Positions 2,599 to 15,669 of a stretch of DNA of 64,000 bases are shown here, in pieces; within the stretch, counting starts at the first letter, position 1; each line of letters begins with the position of its first letter. The stretch is taken from positions 434,001 to 498,000 of the forward strand of contig JAUJOT010000002.1 in assembly GCA_030447505.1 (NCBI GenBank). The letters run 5' to 3'. The position numbers and the translations under genes were made by a program. The notes under the pieces are model-generated. The model saw only the letters and a program-made list of their open reading frames with translations. It was not told where the DNA came from and did not search any database. This DNA is from Solirubrobacteraceae bacterium (lineage in GTDB: Bacteria; Actinomycetota; Thermoleophilia; Solirubrobacterales; Solirubrobacteraceae).

Positions 2599-3438
2599 TC
2601 ACACGACGTCCGCGAACGAACGTTCCATTCGGCGGAAGTACAAGAGCCCGCCCGCCAGCAGCGCCCCGGTCGCGAGCACGGATACCGCGAGCATCGGCCC
2701 CGGAGGTTCTGCCTCCGAGAGCAGCGCCCAGCGGAAGCCGTCGATCACGCCGGCCATCGGATTGAGGCCGTAGACCGCATCCCACGGCTCGGGCACGAGG
2801 CTCGACGGGTACGCGACCGGCGAGACGAACAGCCATAGCTGCACCAGGAACGGGATCACGTAGCGCACGTCTCGGTACAGGACGTTCAACGCCGACAGCC
2901 AGAGGCTGACCGCAAGCGCCGCAAGAGCCGCCAGCAGGACGAAGAACGGCAGCGTCAGGATCGCCGCCGATGGAACGATCCCGTAGACCAGCATCATGAT
3001 CAGCAACACGACGAAGGCGATCGCGAAATCCACCAGACAGGCCAGCACCGCGGCGGTCGGCACGATCAGGCGCGGGAAGTAGACCTTCGCCAGGATGCGC
3101 TCCTGCTCGACGAGGCTGTTGCCGGCGAGGGCGACCGCAGTGGCGAAGAACGTCCACGGCACGAGTGCGGCAAAGGCGAAGACGGGATAGGGCACGTCGC
3201 CGGACGAGATCCCGGCCAAGCTCCCGAAGAAGAGGCTGAAGACGACCATCGTCAAAAACGGCTGAAGCACGGCCCACGCCGCTCCGAACGCCGTCTGCTT
3301 GTAGCGGACCTTGATGTCGCGCCAGGTCAGGAAATAGAAGAGCTCCCGGTAGTCCCACAGCTCTCCGGGTCGCACCGCGACCCATCCACTCGATGGCCGG
3401 ACCGTGGTGCTGCGCCGAACGGAGGTGGTCGAGTCCAT
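2599..3438 (-). CDS. wzm: ABC-2 polysaccharide exporter permease (Wzm-like)
   Basis: 279 aa with about six hydrophobic segments, the usual size and shape of ABC-2 permeases of the Wzm/TagG type. The motif GELWDYRELFYFLTWRDIKVRYKQ before the first membrane span is typical of the amphipathic gate helix of this family. LNVLYRDVRYVIPF is the conserved cytoplasmic segment near the middle. It should pair with the Wzt-like ATPase at 125-1441 and move a completed lipid-linked glycan across the membrane. A TAGGAT box at 3480-3485 is a candidate -10 for a leader of about 40 nt. Start is ATG at 3438. Confidence 0.92.
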   Translation of the reverse strand: MDSTTSVRRSTTVRPSSGWVAVRPGELWDYRELFYFLTWRDIKVRYKQTAFGAAWAVLQPFLTMVVFSLFFGSLAGISSGDVPYPVFAFAALVPWTFFATAVALAGNSLVEQERILAKVYFPRLIVPTAAVLACLVDFAIAFVVLLIMMLVYGIVPSAAILTLPFFVLLAALAALAVSLWLSALNVLYRDVRYVIPFLVQLWLFVSPVAYPSSLVPEPWDAVYGLNPMAGVIDGFRWALLSEAEPPGPMLAVSVLATGALLAGGLLYFRRMERSFADVV

Positions 3439-6325: not shown

Positions 6326-7549
6326 GTGAATGATCGTGGGCCTCAGCATGCGAGGCGAACGCTGGTCGTCCTGCACTCCGAAGCGGCCGCCGGTCCTCCT
6401 CAGCACGTCTTCTCCTGGCTGTCGCCCCTCGCCGAGCGGAGCTCCGTGACGACGGTCGTGCCGGGGCCGGGCACGGCTGCTGAGCTGTACGCGACGATCG
6501 GGCGGACGAGGGTGCTCGGGTTCGACGCGTTGACGTACCCGGATGGCGTTCGAGCGCTCGCTCCATACGTCGCCCGCTTCGCGGCCGATGTCCTGTCCCT
6601 CAGCCGCCTGATCCGGCAGGTCCGACCGGATCTGCTGGTCGTCGTGACCGCATCGGTTCCGGCGGCGCTCGTGGCCGCCCGCCTGCAACGGGTCCCGACG
6701 GTCGTCTTCGTCGGCGAGATCCTCGCCAAGCGGCTGGTGACGACGCGTGGTCGTTCGCTCGCGGCCGCCGCGACGGCGCGGCTGACCGCGGCGCTCGCCG
6801 ACGCCGTCGTCTGCTGCTCGGAGACCGTCGCGCGGCAGTTCGCGCCGCAGCGGACACGGCTGCTGAAAACGATCTACCCGGGCGTGAACGGAAGCCATGG
6901 CGACGGCGACGGCGCGCGGTTCCGCACCCTGCACGGGCTGAGCGAGGCGGATCCGTGCCTTGCCGTGATCGGCAACGTGACGCCCGCCCGCGGGCAGGAC
7001 GTCGCGATCCGCGCGCTTGCGCGGCTGCGCGCGGAGCTTCCGGGCGTGCGCTGCGTGATCGCCGGCGTCCCCCACCCGCGACCCGTCGACATCGCCTACC
7101 GTCAAGAGCTGGCGACGCTCGCCCGCAGCCTGCGGGTAGAGGATGCGGTCGCCTTCGTCGGCCTCGTCGACCCGATTGCAGACCTCTACGCGGCCGCGGA
7201 CGTCGTGGTCAATCCGGCGCGCTTCAACGAGGCGTTCGGACGCGTCGCGATCGAGGCGCTCAGCGCCGGCTGCCCGGTCGTCGCGGCCCGCGTCGGAGCA
7301 ACTCCGGAGATCGTCCGCGACGGGCGCGAAGCGCTGCTGTTCGCGCCCGAGGACGATGAAGCACTGGCGCGAGCGGTCCTGCGGCTGTGGCGCGATCGCG
7401 GGTTGCGCGAGGAGCTCGTGCGCAGGGGGCGACGCCGGGTGGCGGCCAGATACAGCGAGGATCTCGCCGTCCAGGCCTTCGGAGACGTCGTCGAGCGCGT
7501 TCTCGCGGCTCGCGACGCAGGAGCCGCACGTGCGTCGGCGGCGACATGA
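6326..7549 (+). CDS. Family 4 glycosyltransferase
   Basis: 407 aa. I chose the GTG at 6326 because the open frame extends far into the upstream GT2 gene and the family N-terminus begins here (RRTLVVLHSEAAAGPPQHVF). The GT-B fold is complete: an N-terminal Rossmann half, a C-terminal donor half with LAVIGNVTPARGQDVAIRAL, and the donor-site motif NEAFGRVAIEALSAGCPVVA followed by VGATPEIVRDG (the EX7E region). It likely adds one sugar of the repeat unit. The stop is 1 nt before the next ATG, indicating tight operon coupling. Confidence 0.88.
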   Translation: MNDRGPQHARRTLVVLHSEAAAGPPQHVFSWLSPLAERSSVTTVVPGPGTAAELYATIGRTRVLGFDALTYPDGVRALAPYVARFAADVLSLSRLIRQVRPDLLVVVTASVPAALVAARLQRVPTVVFVGEILAKRLVTTRGRSLAAAATARLTAALADAVVCCSETVARQFAPQRTRLLKTIYPGVNGSHGDGDGARFRTLHGLSEADPCLAVIGNVTPARGQDVAIRALARLRAELPGVRCVIAGVPHPRPVDIAYRQELATLARSLRVEDAVAFVGLVDPIADLYAAADVVVNPARFNEAFGRVAIEALSAGCPVVAARVGATPEIVRDGREALLFAPEDDEALARAVLRLWRDRGLREELVRRGRRRVAARYSEDLAVQAFGDVVERVLAARDAGAARASAAT

Positions 7550-7550
7550 G

Positions 7551-9116
7551 ATGAGCGTCGAGAGCCCCCCACTACTGACGACGACGCGAGAACGCGAGCC
7601 GAGCAGTCAACTGCACGACCGGCCCTCGATCGCGGTGCACTGGCTGCGAGCCGCGGCGATAGGGCTCGCGGTTCTCATGCTGGCAGCGCTGACAGCCGTC
7701 TGGCCGGCGCTCACGCTCGTCGGTCTGGGGTTGGTCCTGATCATCGCGCTCGCCTTCTTCGCGCCGCCGTTCGCGCTCGTCGGCGCGATCCTCTTCTACG
7801 GCCTCGAAGGCGCGATCAAGGTCGGACTCGCAAGAGAGCTTCCCGCGCTTGGCGTGACCCCGGAGTCCGTCGGGGCCGCGATCATCGACTTCGTCTTCCT
7901 CGTGGCCGTGCTCGGGGTCGTGCGTCACGATCGAGGTCGGGCGCTGCTCGAGATCTGGAGGAACGTGGGCCGATCGATTCGCATCGCGCTCGCCCTGCTG
8001 GCGGCCTGGATCGCGATCTCCGTCATACAGCTCGCCGTGTCCGGCGACGTCGACTCGGCGCTGGCCGGCTTTCGCCTGTCGCAGGCATACGTGGTGGCCG
8101 TTCTCGCCGGCGCGATGCTGCTGGCCAGGTCGCGCTCCGAGCTCGTCGTGAAGGCGCTCGTCGGCGTGCTGCTCGTCATCACGGCGTACGCCGCCTTCCG
8201 AGCCGTGGCCGGTCCATCCGAAACCGAGCGCGCGGCCGCCTTCGCCCGCTCGACGACGGCGCTCGTGCCGACCGAGGATGGGGTCATCTTCCGCAATTCC
8301 GGCTCCTTCTCGAGCGCGATCGGCCTGGCGAGCTTCCTCGTTCCGGCAGGGGTGTTCCTCTTCGCGCTCGGCCTGTCCTTCGTGCGCCTGCGGCTCGCTG
8401 CCTGGCTCGGATTCGCCCTGGTGCTCGTCGCGCTCGTCGGCAGCTACGTGCGTACGAGCCTGGTGGCGGTCGCGGCGGGCGTCCTGTTCGCCGCGGCTCT
8501 GCTGACATTCGCAAGCGGCCTCGCGAGAACGAGGAAGACGGTGCTCGGACTGGCGGGCGTCCCGGCCCTCGTCGTCCTGATCGCGCTCGGCGCGCTCGTC
8601 CCAACGGCGGTGTCGGGCGGCTCTCAGGCGGTCGAGCAGCGGGGCAGCGGACTGCTCAGACCGCTCTCCGACCCGTCCCTGACGACGCGCGTCGAGCGCT
8701 GGCGTGAATCGCTGGACTCGGTCAAGGCCCATCCGCTCGGAACGGGGTTGGGAACGGTCGGGGGCGCTACCCGTGACAGCGAGGGAAGGGTCCAGGCGTT
8801 CGCCGACAACAGCTACCTGAAGGTCCTTCAGGAGCAGGGGCCGCTCGGTGCCGTCCCGTTCATCCTCGGCATCTTCGGGGTCTTGATCGCGATCGCGGCG
8901 CGCGTCACGCGCAGCGCGATGCCTCTGCGCGGGCTGGCGACCGCGGCCGTCGCAGGGTCGGCGTCGTTCTTCCTGCTCGCGTGGACCTCCGAGGCGATCG
9001 AGCAGCCGGGCAAGGTCCTGGCATGGTTGCTGCTCGGCGTCGCGCTGTGGACCGCGTCGGGAGCGCCGGAACGCGAGCGCGCAGCGCAACCGCAGAGACC
9101 GGGTGAGGCCGCGTGA
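7551..9116 (+). CDS. O-antigen ligase/polymerase family membrane protein
   Basis: 521 aa from ATG 7551, which directly follows the previous stop. About eleven to twelve hydrophobic segments are present. The Wzy_C/WaaL landmark is a periplasmic loop with TRVERWRESLDSVKAHPLGTGLGT, then FADNSYLKVLQEQGPLGAVPF. The latter resembles the HNxxLxxLxExGxxG motif of O-antigen ligases, with D replacing the usual H. Members either polymerise lipid-linked repeat units or attach glycans to an acceptor. In a cluster with a flippase and a Wzz-like protein, polymerase (Wzy) is the more likely role, but ligase cannot be excluded. Confidence 0.88.
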   Translation: MSVESPPLLTTTREREPSSQLHDRPSIAVHWLRAAAIGLAVLMLAALTAVWPALTLVGLGLVLIIALAFFAPPFALVGAILFYGLEGAIKVGLARELPALGVTPESVGAAIIDFVFLVAVLGVVRHDRGRALLEIWRNVGRSIRIALALLAAWIAISVIQLAVSGDVDSALAGFRLSQAYVVAVLAGAMLLARSRSELVVKALVGVLLVITAYAAFRAVAGPSETERAAAFARSTTALVPTEDGVIFRNSGSFSSAIGLASFLVPAGVFLFALGLSFVRLRLAAWLGFALVLVALVGSYVRTSLVAVAAGVLFAAALLTFASGLARTRKTVLGLAGVPALVVLIALGALVPTAVSGGSQAVEQRGSGLLRPLSDPSLTTRVERWRESLDSVKAHPLGTGLGTVGGATRDSEGRVQAFADNSYLKVLQEQGPLGAVPFILGIFGVLIAIAARVTRSAMPLRGLATAAVAGSASFFLLAWTSEAIEQPGKVLAWLLLGVALWTASGAPERERAAQPQRPGEAA

Positions 9117-10588
9117 CCATGCGAGAGCTCGTCGGCTCGCTTCCCGGCTGGGCGCGTTCGCGCTTCGCGCTGGTGATTCCCCTGCTGCTCGTCGTCGTGC
9201 CGGTCGCCGTGAGCCTGCTTCGAGATTCCCACTTCGACACCACGCTCGAGGTGTTTCCCACGACGCCTCCCGGCAACGCCGGAGCGAGTAGCGAATCAAA
9301 CGCCGTCAACCTGCCGGCGCCAGACGAGGTGAACCTCGTCGCCAATCCCGGCTTCGAGCACGACAGGAGCGGCTGGGGCGATCCGCCCGCGTTCAAGGTG
9401 CTCCGCTCCGAGCGGCGCGCGCACACCGGCACCGCCTCGCTGCGCTCCTCCACCGAGCAGCGGGCGCCGGCCGACACGAATGCCGGCCACACCTACATCG
9501 TCTTCCCGCGCGCCGGGAGCTACCGCGTCAAGGCGTGGGCGTATCTCCCGGCGACGACGGGCGAAGGCCGGCCCGGCGTCTTCCTCGAGGGCTTCTCGGG
9601 GAGCACGCAGCTCAAGCAGACGCTGGGCGATCCGGCGCGTCGCGGAACGTGGCAGTGGGTGTCGACCGACTACGCGATCTCACCACAGGACCTGGAGGGG
9701 TCTCTCGTCCTGCGCGACCTTCCGGCCTCGACCGCAGCCGGCGGCGCGGGCCCCGACGCGGGTGGCGAGCGGGTCTTGTACTGGGACGACGTGAGCGTGA
9801 CCGCGCGCCGGCCCGACCGGACAAGCGATCCGGTCGCAGCAGCCGCCAGCCTGCGCTCCGCGCTGCGCGAGCCGCAGCTGCGCTCCGACATCGCGCGCAT
9901 CGCGGCAGACACCAACCTCTACGACCCGCGCCGAACGATCGTCGAACGCAGCCCGCGTAACGGCACGCTCAGCTTCGTCGTCAGGGTGGCGAACGACACG
10001 CCGAGTGACGCGAACAGGTTGGCCGGGCCACTTCGCTCCACCCTGCTCGACGCGGCGCGACGCGCCACTCGTCGCCGCGCCGCGAAGACGTGGCAGCAGC
10101 TCATCGCGATTGTCGGCGACCGTCTGGCGCCGCGCAAGCGCGCGCTCCTCGAGCAGCGGGCCGGGGTCCTCGAGCGGCTGATCGGAGCACAGCCGGCGGA
10201 CGTCGTGGCGCCGCCCGCGCCTGCGCCCAAACCGAGCAGGCTGACGCAGGCACAACTTCTGCAGGCTCATGAGGATCGGCAGGCGATCATCTCGAGGACC
10301 GGCGACGACCTCCCGCCCTGGCAGCGCGCGCTGGTGCAAGAGCAGGCCGACAACCTGCAACGCATGATCGCTGCTGACACCGCCGAGTTCGTCGTGCTGC
10401 CCGCGAACGCTCCGGTCGAGCCGACACGACCGCTCGACCGCCTGCTCGCCAACCTTCCCGGACCCTTTCCGAAGCGGGTCGGGCCGCTCTCGGCGGGGGC
10501 GGCGGGGCTGATCTGCGCGATCCTGTTCCTCGGCATGCTCATCACGATGACCGCGGCGCGTCAGTACGCCGCCGGCGGCAGTCGCTGA
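9113..10588 (+). CDS. Wzz-like chain-length protein with inserted carbohydrate-binding-like domain
   Basis: 491 aa from GTG 9113 overlapping the previous stop (GTGA); an ATG at 9119 is the alternative. TM1 is residues 18-36, followed by DTTLEVFPT as in Wzz proteins, and TM2 is about 460-482, preceded by a Pro-rich stretch (VEPTRPLDRLLANLPG). This is the topology of polysaccharide co-polymerases. Between them, residues about 74-230 look like a CenC/CBM4_9-type beta-sandwich: NLVANPGFEHDRSGWG, HTGTASLRSS, RAGSYRVKAWAYL, YWDDVSVTA. After it a Wzz-like stretch resumes (LREPQLRSDIARIAADTNLY, FVVRVANDTPSDANRLA) and leads into a helical region. Regulation of chain length with direct glycan contact is a plausible role. 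Confidence 0.7.
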   Translation: MTMRELVGSLPGWARSRFALVIPLLLVVVPVAVSLLRDSHFDTTLEVFPTTPPGNAGASSESNAVNLPAPDEVNLVANPGFEHDRSGWGDPPAFKVLRSERRAHTGTASLRSSTEQRAPADTNAGHTYIVFPRAGSYRVKAWAYLPATTGEGRPGVFLEGFSGSTQLKQTLGDPARRGTWQWVSTDYAISPQDLEGSLVLRDLPASTAAGGAGPDAGGERVLYWDDVSVTARRPDRTSDPVAAAASLRSALREPQLRSDIARIAADTNLYDPRRTIVERSPRNGTLSFVVRVANDTPSDANRLAGPLRSTLLDAARRATRRRAAKTWQQLIAIVGDRLAPRKRALLEQRAGVLERLIGAQPADVVAPPAPAPKPSRLTQAQLLQAHEDRQAIISRTGDDLPPWQRALVQEQADNLQRMIAADTAEFVVLPANAPVEPTRPLDRLLANLPGPFPKRVGPLSAGAAGLICAILFLGMLITMTAARQYAAGGSR

Positions 10589-10590
10589 AG

Positions 10591-11565
10591 ATGCGCTCGT
10601 GGCGCCCGACCGCGTGGTTTGCGATCGTGTGGACGCTCGCGATGGCGGTCTGGCTCGTCCTGTACGAGCAGACGCACGCGACATGCGGGCCCGAGATCGA
10701 GCGCGACTGCTCGATCGGGCTGAGCGTCACCGCCGGGCTGGGCCGGCCCGGCATCGTCCTGCTCTGGTCGCTGGGCGTGGCGGCGTTCGCCGTGACGTGG
10801 TTGACGGACCGTCACCGGCGGTCGAAGACCGGGCAGCGCCCGCAGAAGCGCGGACCACGCCCGCTGCCTGCCGCCGCCATGCTGGCGGTCGTCCTCGCCG
10901 CGACGGTCGTGGTGGCCCTACCCGCATCGACGCGCCCGACGCGCGAGGTGCCCCCGACAGCGGCCGAGGCCGTGGACGTCCAAGTCGTCTCGGCGATCCT
11001 TCATCCGTCGGCTTCATCGGCCGGACGCCGCCGCCATGCCGCACGTGTCAGCGTGCACGTCCGGCTGAACAACCGCGGCAGTCGCCGCGTCACGTTGACG
11101 CAGCCGATGCTGCTGTCCGGCGGCGCGGCGCTCGCCTACGATCGCCGCCAGTTCGCGCTCGATCCGCTGCGGCCCGGAGTGGTCGTGGACGCCACGTTGC
11201 GATTCGAGCCGCGCTCGGCGTTCACCCAGCGCCTCGTCACGGCCCGTGACGCGCGGCTTCAGATCGCCGGTCGAACGATTCCGCTGACGCTGAAGATCGG
11301 CGCACCGGTGCGCAAGTCGCCGCTGCGCGGCGTGTCACCTCCGCCCGCGGTCGAGCGCGCGACGAGTCCCCCGCCTGCGAGCGCGCCGCCGCCGGCGGCC
11401 GGCCGCGCTCGCTCAGATCCGCAAGCGCCGCGCGCGGCACCGCCCCGCGCGGCACCGCCCCGGCGAGACCCGCCCGTTCGAGCGACACCACCGCCGCCAC
11501 CGCCAAGGCCCCCGGCCGGCAGGAACCGGGATCCGGACGGCCCCGTCTTCGACGACTCCGGCTGA
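10591..11565 (+). CDS. Membrane protein with proline-rich tail, unknown function
   Basis: 324 aa, starting 3 nt after the Wzz-like gene. Three hydrophobic segments are visible (about residues 8-25, 48-68 and 92-110). A periplasmic-like beta-rich domain follows (VSVHVRLNNRGSRRVTLTQP). The last 80 residues are almost wholly Pro, Ala and Arg, probably disordered and wall-spanning. Two cysteines (TCGPEIERDC) lie in the first outside loop and could form a disulfide. No known family is recognised. Its place between the chain-length protein and a glycosyltransferase suggests a structural part of the glycan assembly machinery. Confidence 0.7.
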   Translation: MRSWRPTAWFAIVWTLAMAVWLVLYEQTHATCGPEIERDCSIGLSVTAGLGRPGIVLLWSLGVAAFAVTWLTDRHRRSKTGQRPQKRGPRPLPAAAMLAVVLAATVVVALPASTRPTREVPPTAAEAVDVQVVSAILHPSASSAGRRRHAARVSVHVRLNNRGSRRVTLTQPMLLSGGAALAYDRRQFALDPLRPGVVVDATLRFEPRSAFTQRLVTARDARLQIAGRTIPLTLKIGAPVRKSPLRGVSPPPAVERATSPPPASAPPPAAGRARSDPQAPRAAPPRAAPPRRDPPVRATPPPPPPRPPAGRNRDPDGPVFDDSG

Positions 11566-14256: not shown

Positions 14257-15669
14257 TCATGCGCCCGTAGGCGCTCTGCCCCCGAGGATCCTCGAGACTC
14301 CCGCCTCGGTTGCCAGCATCTGCAGGTCGCGAGGCATGAGCGCCATCGCAAGTACCGACCAGACCGCCAGCGCCGCCGCCACCGCGAGTGGCAGGCCGGT
14401 CAACGTCGGCATCTGATCGGCGACGGCGCGGCCGGCCGCCGCCGCCGCGGTCGCGATCAGCGCGGCATGCGCAAGCGTCGTCAGCCGCAGCCTCAAGAAC
14501 CTGCGCGAGTTGACGTACAGCAGTGCCGCCGTCGCCACCAGCGCAGCAAGGAACGCGGCCCCGATCGCCTCGGCGCCGAATCGCGGCGCGAAGGCGATCG
14601 CGGCCGTCCACAGCACGACGAGTTGCACCGCGCCACCCAGAAGCGGCGCGCGCAGGTCGCCGCGCGCCTGCACGAGCCCCCAGAGCGCGACCCAGAGCGG
14701 CCCGAGCACCATCCAGCCCACGGCGGCCAGCGTGACCGGCAGGATCACGCCCTCCCATTCGCGCCCCAGGACGCCGCCCACGAGCGCGGGAGCGCTTCCG
14801 ACGATCGTCGCGAGCAGCGCGGCAGCGGCCAGTGCCGTGATTCCAAGCACGCGCTGGGCCTGACGTTCGTCCTCCTCGCGGCTTGCCACCTTCGAGAAAG
14901 CCACGAAGCCGACGCGCCCGACCGTCTGGAACAGGACGACCGGCGCCACGAGCAGCCGCTGTGCCAGTGCCCACACGCCGGTCACCGACGCTCCCGAGAA
15001 GGTCAGCAGAAGCAGGTTGAGGCCGCCGTCGCGAACGGCGTACAGGGACTCCGAGAGCTGGAAGGCCGCCCCGAAGCGCCATATCCGGCGCAGGACGCCC
15101 AGCCGGCGCGTCAGGCGTACGCGCACGGGCGAAACGACGAGGCCGGCCGCGACGCCCGCCGCAGCCGACGCGCACGCGGCCGGCGCGAGGCTCCAGATGC
15201 CCGCGCCGAGAGCCGCAAGCGAGACGGCGACGCCGTACAACGCAAGCTGCTCGGTGACGTCCATGACCGACAGCGGGACATATTGAAGCTCCCGCTCGAG
15301 CACGCACGCCGGCGCCACGCGGGGCGAGGAGATCGGCAGCGCGAGCAGCGCCAGGCCGATTGCCTGGGCTTCCTCTGCGCGGGCACCGAGCGCCGGCAGC
15401 AGCCCGAACGCCAGACCCAGGCCGCCCGCCGCCGCGACCAGGCCGAAACAGATCTGGAACGTGAACAGTGCGTTCAGCTCGCCCTCGCTGGGCGCTTCGG
15501 CGCGCCGCAGCAGCGTGGCCCCGAGGCCGCTGCGGGTCACCGCCTGGAGTGCCGCCACAAGCCCGAGACCGACGGCCCAGACGCCGAAGGCGCCCGGTCC
15601 GAGCACGATCGCCAGGACAAGGCCTCCGGTCATCGTCAGCACCCGGATCGCCAGGTCGCGGGCGACCAT
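14257..15669 (-). CDS. Polysaccharide flippase (Wzx/MurJ-like, MOP superfamily)
   Basis: 470 aa from ATG 15669, giving the usual flippase length; a GTG at 15672 and a CTG at 15726 are possible longer starts. About twelve to fourteen hydrophobic helices cover the whole length, with the typical opening ARDLAIRVLTMTGGLVLAIVLGPGAFGVWAVG. A middle loop with VGRVGFVAFSKVASREEDERQA is also characteristic of Wzx-type exporters. It likely flips the lipid-linked repeat unit to the outer face for polymerisation by the Wzy-like protein at 7551-9116. It sits directly after a glycosyltransferase on the same strand. Confidence 0.88.
   Translation of the reverse strand: MVARDLAIRVLTMTGGLVLAIVLGPGAFGVWAVGLGLVAALQAVTRSGLGATLLRRAEAPSEGELNALFTFQICFGLVAAAGGLGLAFGLLPALGARAEEAQAIGLALLALPISSPRVAPACVLERELQYVPLSVMDVTEQLALYGVAVSLAALGAGIWSLAPAACASAAAGVAAGLVVSPVRVRLTRRLGVLRRIWRFGAAFQLSESLYAVRDGGLNLLLLTFSGASVTGVWALAQRLLVAPVVLFQTVGRVGFVAFSKVASREEDERQAQRVLGITALAAAALLATIVGSAPALVGGVLGREWEGVILPVTLAAVGWMVLGPLWVALWGLVQARGDLRAPLLGGAVQLVVLWTAAIAFAPRFGAEAIGAAFLAALVATAALLYVNSRRFLRLRLTTLAHAALIATAAAAAGRAVADQMPTLTGLPLAVAAALAVWSVLAMALMPRDLQMLATEAGVSRILGGRAPTGA

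Follow-up and report, generated by a model that had tools for sequence, protein, structure and literature searches.

A Wzz/Wzc-like polysaccharide co-polymerase with an inserted CBM-like domain, encoded next to a Wzy-family polymerase

It is still debated how polysaccharide co-polymerases (PCPs) determine the length of the chain, and the models differ in whether the co-polymerase scaffolds several polymerases or encloses the growing chain (discussed in PMC12881504). WzzE is described as forming a complex with WzyE (PMC10030265). In a 2026 cryo-EM study, the jellyroll of Escherichia coli Wzc (residues 112-204) bound glycans on an array, its deletion strongly reduced colanic acid, and the intact polymer was not bound by the jellyroll in cosedimentation (PMC12881504). 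Because glycan binding has been reported for this jellyroll, a PCP that recognizes glycans is a known idea. Here we describe a PCP-like protein carrying a sugar-binding type of module at a different and previously unseen place. It is encoded in a 64,000-nucleotide stretch of DNA from a Solirubrobacteraceae bacterium, and this whole stretch is referred to below as the window.

The co-polymerase-like gene and its polysaccharide locus

The plus-strand frame at 9113-10588 is a genuine open reading frame of 491 codons with a 491-aa product, and from the frame itself, its relatives and the full-length fold it was annotated as a Wzz/Wzc-like polysaccharide co-polymerase gene with an inserted CBM-like domain and without a kinase domain. 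The start codon is GTG, with a further in-frame ATG at 9119, and it overlaps by 4 bases (GTGA, 9113-9116) the TGA stop of the adjoining upstream wzy gene (7551-9116, plus strand), whose product belongs to the Wzy/O-antigen-ligase family of polymerases according to its sequence and to Pfam Wzy_C (E 3.9e-14). Residues of the window protein are numbered here from the T encoded at 9116. The C-terminus lies about 10 residues past the second transmembrane helix (TM2), which leaves no room for a C-terminal tyrosine kinase such as that of Wzc.

The neighboring genes encode an ABC exporter pair, an initiating sugar transferase, glycosyltransferases and a Polysacc_synt_3 flippase, and for this reason the region is a surface-polysaccharide locus, within which the co-polymerase is genetically linked to Wzy. 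The exporter ATPase (125-1441) and permease (2599-3438) lie on the minus strand, and a Wzx-like flippase is found at 14257-15570 of the same locus, so two export routes may coexist. Another contig of the same genome carries two canonical Wzz-plus-kinase genes. The third gene of the cluster (10591-11565, plus strand) encodes a conserved membrane-anchored protein that is also present downstream in the related loci L003, L004 and L077, and no Pfam family matched it above the cut-off. In L077 the frame of its counterpart (6342-8195) additionally encodes a kinase domain (Pkinase, E 2e-28), and in L004 an extracytoplasmic segment of its counterpart (9930-11234) is present as a near-exact repeat.

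The PCP-like flanks and a duplicated helical hairpin

Hydropathy and AF2 agree on two transmembrane helices flanking an extracytoplasmic part. TM1 spans about residues 17-36 (within 12-38; AF2 helix 20-35; 9164-9223), and TM2 spans residues 457-480 (within about 454-483; AF2 helix 457-487; 10484-10555); these and all other features of the protein given below are on the plus strand. In the N-terminal half, the AF2 model places TM1, a strand at 40-48, the beta-sandwich described in the next section, helices at 239-263 and strands at 274-278 and 287-293, and in the C-terminal half it places a long helix (296-334), three further helices, a strand at 425-436 and TM2. The strand at 40-48 (FDTTLEVFP, 9233-9259) corresponds to the first PCP strand, residues 239-263 (9830-9904) to PCP helix 1 and residues 274-334 (9935-10117) to PCP strands 2 and 3 with the long helix.

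The full-length model, built from an alignment of four sequences, has low confidence (pLDDT 53, pTM 0.36). When it was compared with known structures by VIA-align, the highest scores were obtained with Wzc (Z 10.1, over residues 1-483) and KpsE (Z 8.9), and lower in the ranking came WzzE (Z 7.6), the Wzz component of the complex with Wzy (7.1) and FepE (6.9). The thirteen best rows were all PCPs, from two classes and with both transmembrane helices included, but Z values of about 8-10 at an rmsd near 9 Å are modest matches, and HMG-CoA reductase domains scored close to the PCPs over the alpha/beta core, which indicates that this core arrangement is common. The flanks are thus predicted, with moderate confidence, to have the fold of a Wzz/Wzc-type PCP. 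Neither of the two outcomes that the earlier note had named as refuting its proposal was seen: a sandwich is present between the two halves, and the flanking parts resemble PCPs in fold in this low-confidence full-length model.

The comparison of sequences points more weakly in the same direction. With the CBM excised and TM1 retained, the family profile could be aligned collinearly, at E values of 3e-5 to 2e-4, with that of 26 canonical Wzz sequences from the order, from TM1 through the Pro-rich end. In this alignment FDTTLEV is paired with the Y.A.A.l.v strand of canonical Wzz, and ANDTPSDANRLA (residues 292-303, 9989-10024), the stretch that had been singled out as Wzz-like, is paired with the D.P..A..LAN strand-helix motif. 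This profile-profile match is marginal and driven by TM1, and the soluble PCP part alone, compared as a profile with canonical Wzz, did not beat shuffled columns. Moreover, neither the full protein nor the version with the CBM removed was matched by the Pfam Wzz/PCP families, and a PDB sequence search with the full-length protein gave no match. Because Pfam Wzz does not match and the profile match is marginal and TM1-driven, the window protein is called here PCP-like.

The region before TM2, which the earlier note had described only as helical, is indeed helical and proved to contain a diverged duplication. From the long helix to TM2 a helical hairpin occurs twice, in diverged form (residues 327-370, 10094-10225, and residues 389-432, 10280-10411), each copy ending in a strand and a Pro-rich segment. 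The local score of the repeat in the window protein was 84, compared with a mean of 29.6 (sd 5.1) and a maximum of 49 in shuffled sequences. The repeat also scored above every shuffle in the relatives L004 and L006, and in L003 a single shuffle scored higher. As judged by eye, the single hairpin found in canonical Wzz from the order resembles the repeated one.

The inserted CBM-like domain and its distribution

A CBM-like beta-sandwich had been proposed to lie between the two Wzz halves at about residues 74-230, and AF2, structure matches and PDB profile matches confirmed it, with boundaries at residues 67-233 (9314-9814), as an insertion that separates PCP strand 1 from helix 1. Modeled in isolation from an alignment of 11 related domains, it forms a ten-strand beta-sandwich (pLDDT 83.6, pTM 0.81). 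A Foldseek search of the PDB with this model gave CBM22 as the best match (E 8.8e-7, TM 0.69), with CBM16, CBM61 and CBM4 also found, and VIA-align matched the same families at Z values of 12.6-14.9 (14.9 for CBM22, 14.0 for CBM16, 13.5 for CBM61 and 12.7 for CBM4-2). When the alignment profile of the domain was compared with all PDB chains, the first-ranked matches came from the same CBM families as by fold, namely 4xup (CBM22, E 1.5e-6), 2zew (CBM16, E 1.2e-5) and 1k42 (E 9.6e-5). Pfam CBM_4_9 matched the window domain below threshold (E 0.0017 and 0.0027) and, among five single domains from relatives, it gave three sub-threshold matches and none with the other two; its best whole-protein match among the relatives had an E value of 1.2e-5. 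Since a confident model, fold matches and PDB profile matches agree, the identity of the domain as a CBM is solid at the superfamily level. VIA-align also showed that Stig cyclases, which have another function, share the fold, so that fold alone leaves sugar binding putative. The domain is at least as conserved as the PCP part (61 and 59% versus about 50% identity in two distant relatives), and its dN/dS of 0.41 between the window protein and L003 indicates purifying selection.

Relatives of the window protein, with whole-protein identities of 54-74%, were found in L003 (643 aa, 74% identical), in L004 and L008 (apparently one sequence) and in L006. The family is rare, being present in 3 of 399 genomes of the class, the window's own included, and only in the window's own genome in a sample of 396 genomes of the phylum. 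L003 and L004 contain a tandem pair of CBMs, and the window protein and L006 contain a single one. The first copies are 52% identical to each other, the second copies 57-73%, and identity between the two kinds is about 40%; by second-copy identity the window protein pairs with L003 (73%) and L006 with L004 (64%). This pattern suggests an ancestral tandem pair from which the first copy was probably lost in both sub-lineages. A collapse of tandem CBMs during assembly of the window sequence was rejected as an explanation, given that the copies of the relatives are only about 40% identical. Matches in L007, L013, L016 and L020 proved to be spurious or of no relevance, and L012, L014 and L015, together with the phylum-wide matches that were inspected, were for the most part secreted proteins carrying a CBM4_9-like domain at the C-terminus and not PCPs.

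The coupling to wzy is also found in the relatives. In L003 the end of wzy and the start of the PCP gene share 4 bases (ATGA), and in L004 (6429-9926) wzy continues into the CBM-bearing PCP gene as one uninterrupted frame of 1165 aa; L008 has the same fused sequence. L004 and L008 thus appear to represent a natural fusion of polymerase and co-polymerase, as read from the continuous frame.

CBM-like modules were also observed in another family within the class, where Wzy-like proteins (L055-L058) have such a domain in a long extracytoplasmic loop, upstream of an RP..G.GFG motif. Paralogues present in three of these four genomes (L064-L066) are devoid of the domain and align on both sides of it. 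One member, L055, which is also the protein labelled L017, was matched by CBM_4_9 (E 3.3e-4) and by Wzy_C (E 5.7e-4), in each case below the curated cut-off. Because the modules of these Wzy-like polymerases share only 23-29% identity with the CBMs of the window family, the simplest reading is that CBMs were inserted separately in polymerases and in the co-polymerase.

Proposed role and comparison with known systems

Our preferred reading, which we consider probable, is that the gene encodes a Wzz/Wzc-type co-polymerase of a Wzx/Wzy-like locus whose CBM4/16/22-type module grips repeat units or the chain beside Wzy. It builds on features that were computed directly, that is, the fold and conservation of the domain, the PCP-like flanks (of moderate strength), the wzy coupling or fusion and the variation in copy number. 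The co-polymerase would oligomerize into a PCP assembly that surrounds or adjoins the Wzy protein from the overlapping upstream gene, in a complex with it, and TM1 and the first strand would hold the CBM near the membrane. Glycan binding by the CBM would then consist in gripping repeat units carried on undecaprenyl, or the chain as it grows, and by feeding or holding the chain at Wzy the domain may affect modal length, as a form of length control, or retention. A wider and tentative proposal is that sugar-binding modules have been inserted repeatedly in the membrane machinery that polymerizes surface glycans in the class, once lineage by lineage into the co-polymerase or the polymerase, and that their number (one or two) tunes the grip on the chain and its length, so that they would act as a polymer-holding ruler.

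CBMs are usually attachment modules, and the inserted domain might simply keep the finished polysaccharide on the membrane or wall, with no control of polymerization and with the Wzz-like fold as a scaffold only. The same type of module at the C-terminus of secreted proteins in the phylum and the lack of a kinase domain would fit such an anchor, but the overlap or fusion with wzy, the PCP-like fold and the modules within polymerases point to assembly rather than storage, and we consider this explanation unlikely. A fold compatible with other functions, as in the Stig cyclases, and a labile copy number would also be expected of a sandwich that had lost sugar binding and served as a structural or protein-protein module, for instance to dock Wzy or to widen the PCP ring. 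The closest PDB sequence relatives of known function are, however, sugar-binding CBMs, and purifying selection acts on the domain, although a spacer could be under such selection too; a non-binding module seems to us quite unlikely.

A more radical possibility would be that the window protein is an unrelated protein with two transmembrane helices whose alpha/beta core only resembles that of PCPs. The missing Pfam Wzz match, the low confidence of the full-length model and the nearly equal scores of the HMG-CoA reductase domains over the core argue in its favor. Nevertheless, it is hard to reconcile with thirteen top structural matches that include both membrane helices, with a strand-helix-strand order and a D.P..A..LA motif collinear with canonical Wzz, and with the adjacency or fusion to wzy, and we regard it as very improbable.

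If the co-polymerase role holds, the CBM could grip the very polymer whose synthesis the protein aids, sugar binding itself being putative. A co-polymerase with one or two CBM copies, sometimes fused to the polymerase, would make contact with the polymer testable by removing or counting modules, and natural variation in module number is unusual and itself testable. That Wzy-like polymerases carry such inserts in parallel suggests that a glycan grip and polymerization have been joined more than once. Our search of the open-access literature found no description of a Wzz or Wzy protein with an internal CBM.

Among the known systems, the PCP-1 proteins (Wzz, WzzE and FepE) resemble the window protein in having two transmembrane helices, no kinase and the same order of core elements. 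They differ from it in the absence of a CBM, and Pfam Wzz does not match the window protein; ordinary Wzz has no such sugar-binding fold, unlike the window family, and none of the canonical Wzz sequences retrieved from the order contained a CBM. KpsE (PCP-3) is a structural match (Z 8.9) that operates with an ABC transporter, and the literature consulted on KpsE describes no CBM insertion. The CBM22, CBM16, CBM61 and CBM4 modules share the fold and a detectable sequence similarity with the window domain, but they occur in glycoside hydrolases that degrade polysaccharides, whereas the window module is part of a membrane-bound assembly protein. The Wzy-like polymerases with an insert (L055-L059) have a module of the same superfamily, also in an extracytoplasmic loop of the polysaccharide assembly machinery, but in the polymerase instead of the co-polymerase.

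Wzc (PCP-2a) is the best match of the full-length model and likewise a PCP to which a beta-sandwich close to the membrane has been added. When canonical Wzz was aligned to Wzc, the aligned blocks covered residues 19-109 and 214 onward, which places the Wzc jellyroll (about 93 aa) after helix 1, whereas the window module (about 165 aa) lies before helix 1. In addition, the window-family module is of the CBM4/16/22 type and can be doubled, unlike the jellyroll, and Wzc has a tyrosine kinase that the window protein lacks. The profile of the window CBM detected no similarity to the sequence of the Wzc jellyroll. Because of this and of the different insertion site, the window protein seems to represent a solution reached independently, with a module different from that of Wzc. 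The "new design" claimed in the earlier note is therefore too strong a term, given the glycan binding reported for the Wzc jellyroll (PMC12881504), and what is new with respect to Wzc is the type of module, its insertion site, its variable copy number and its link to the polymerase.
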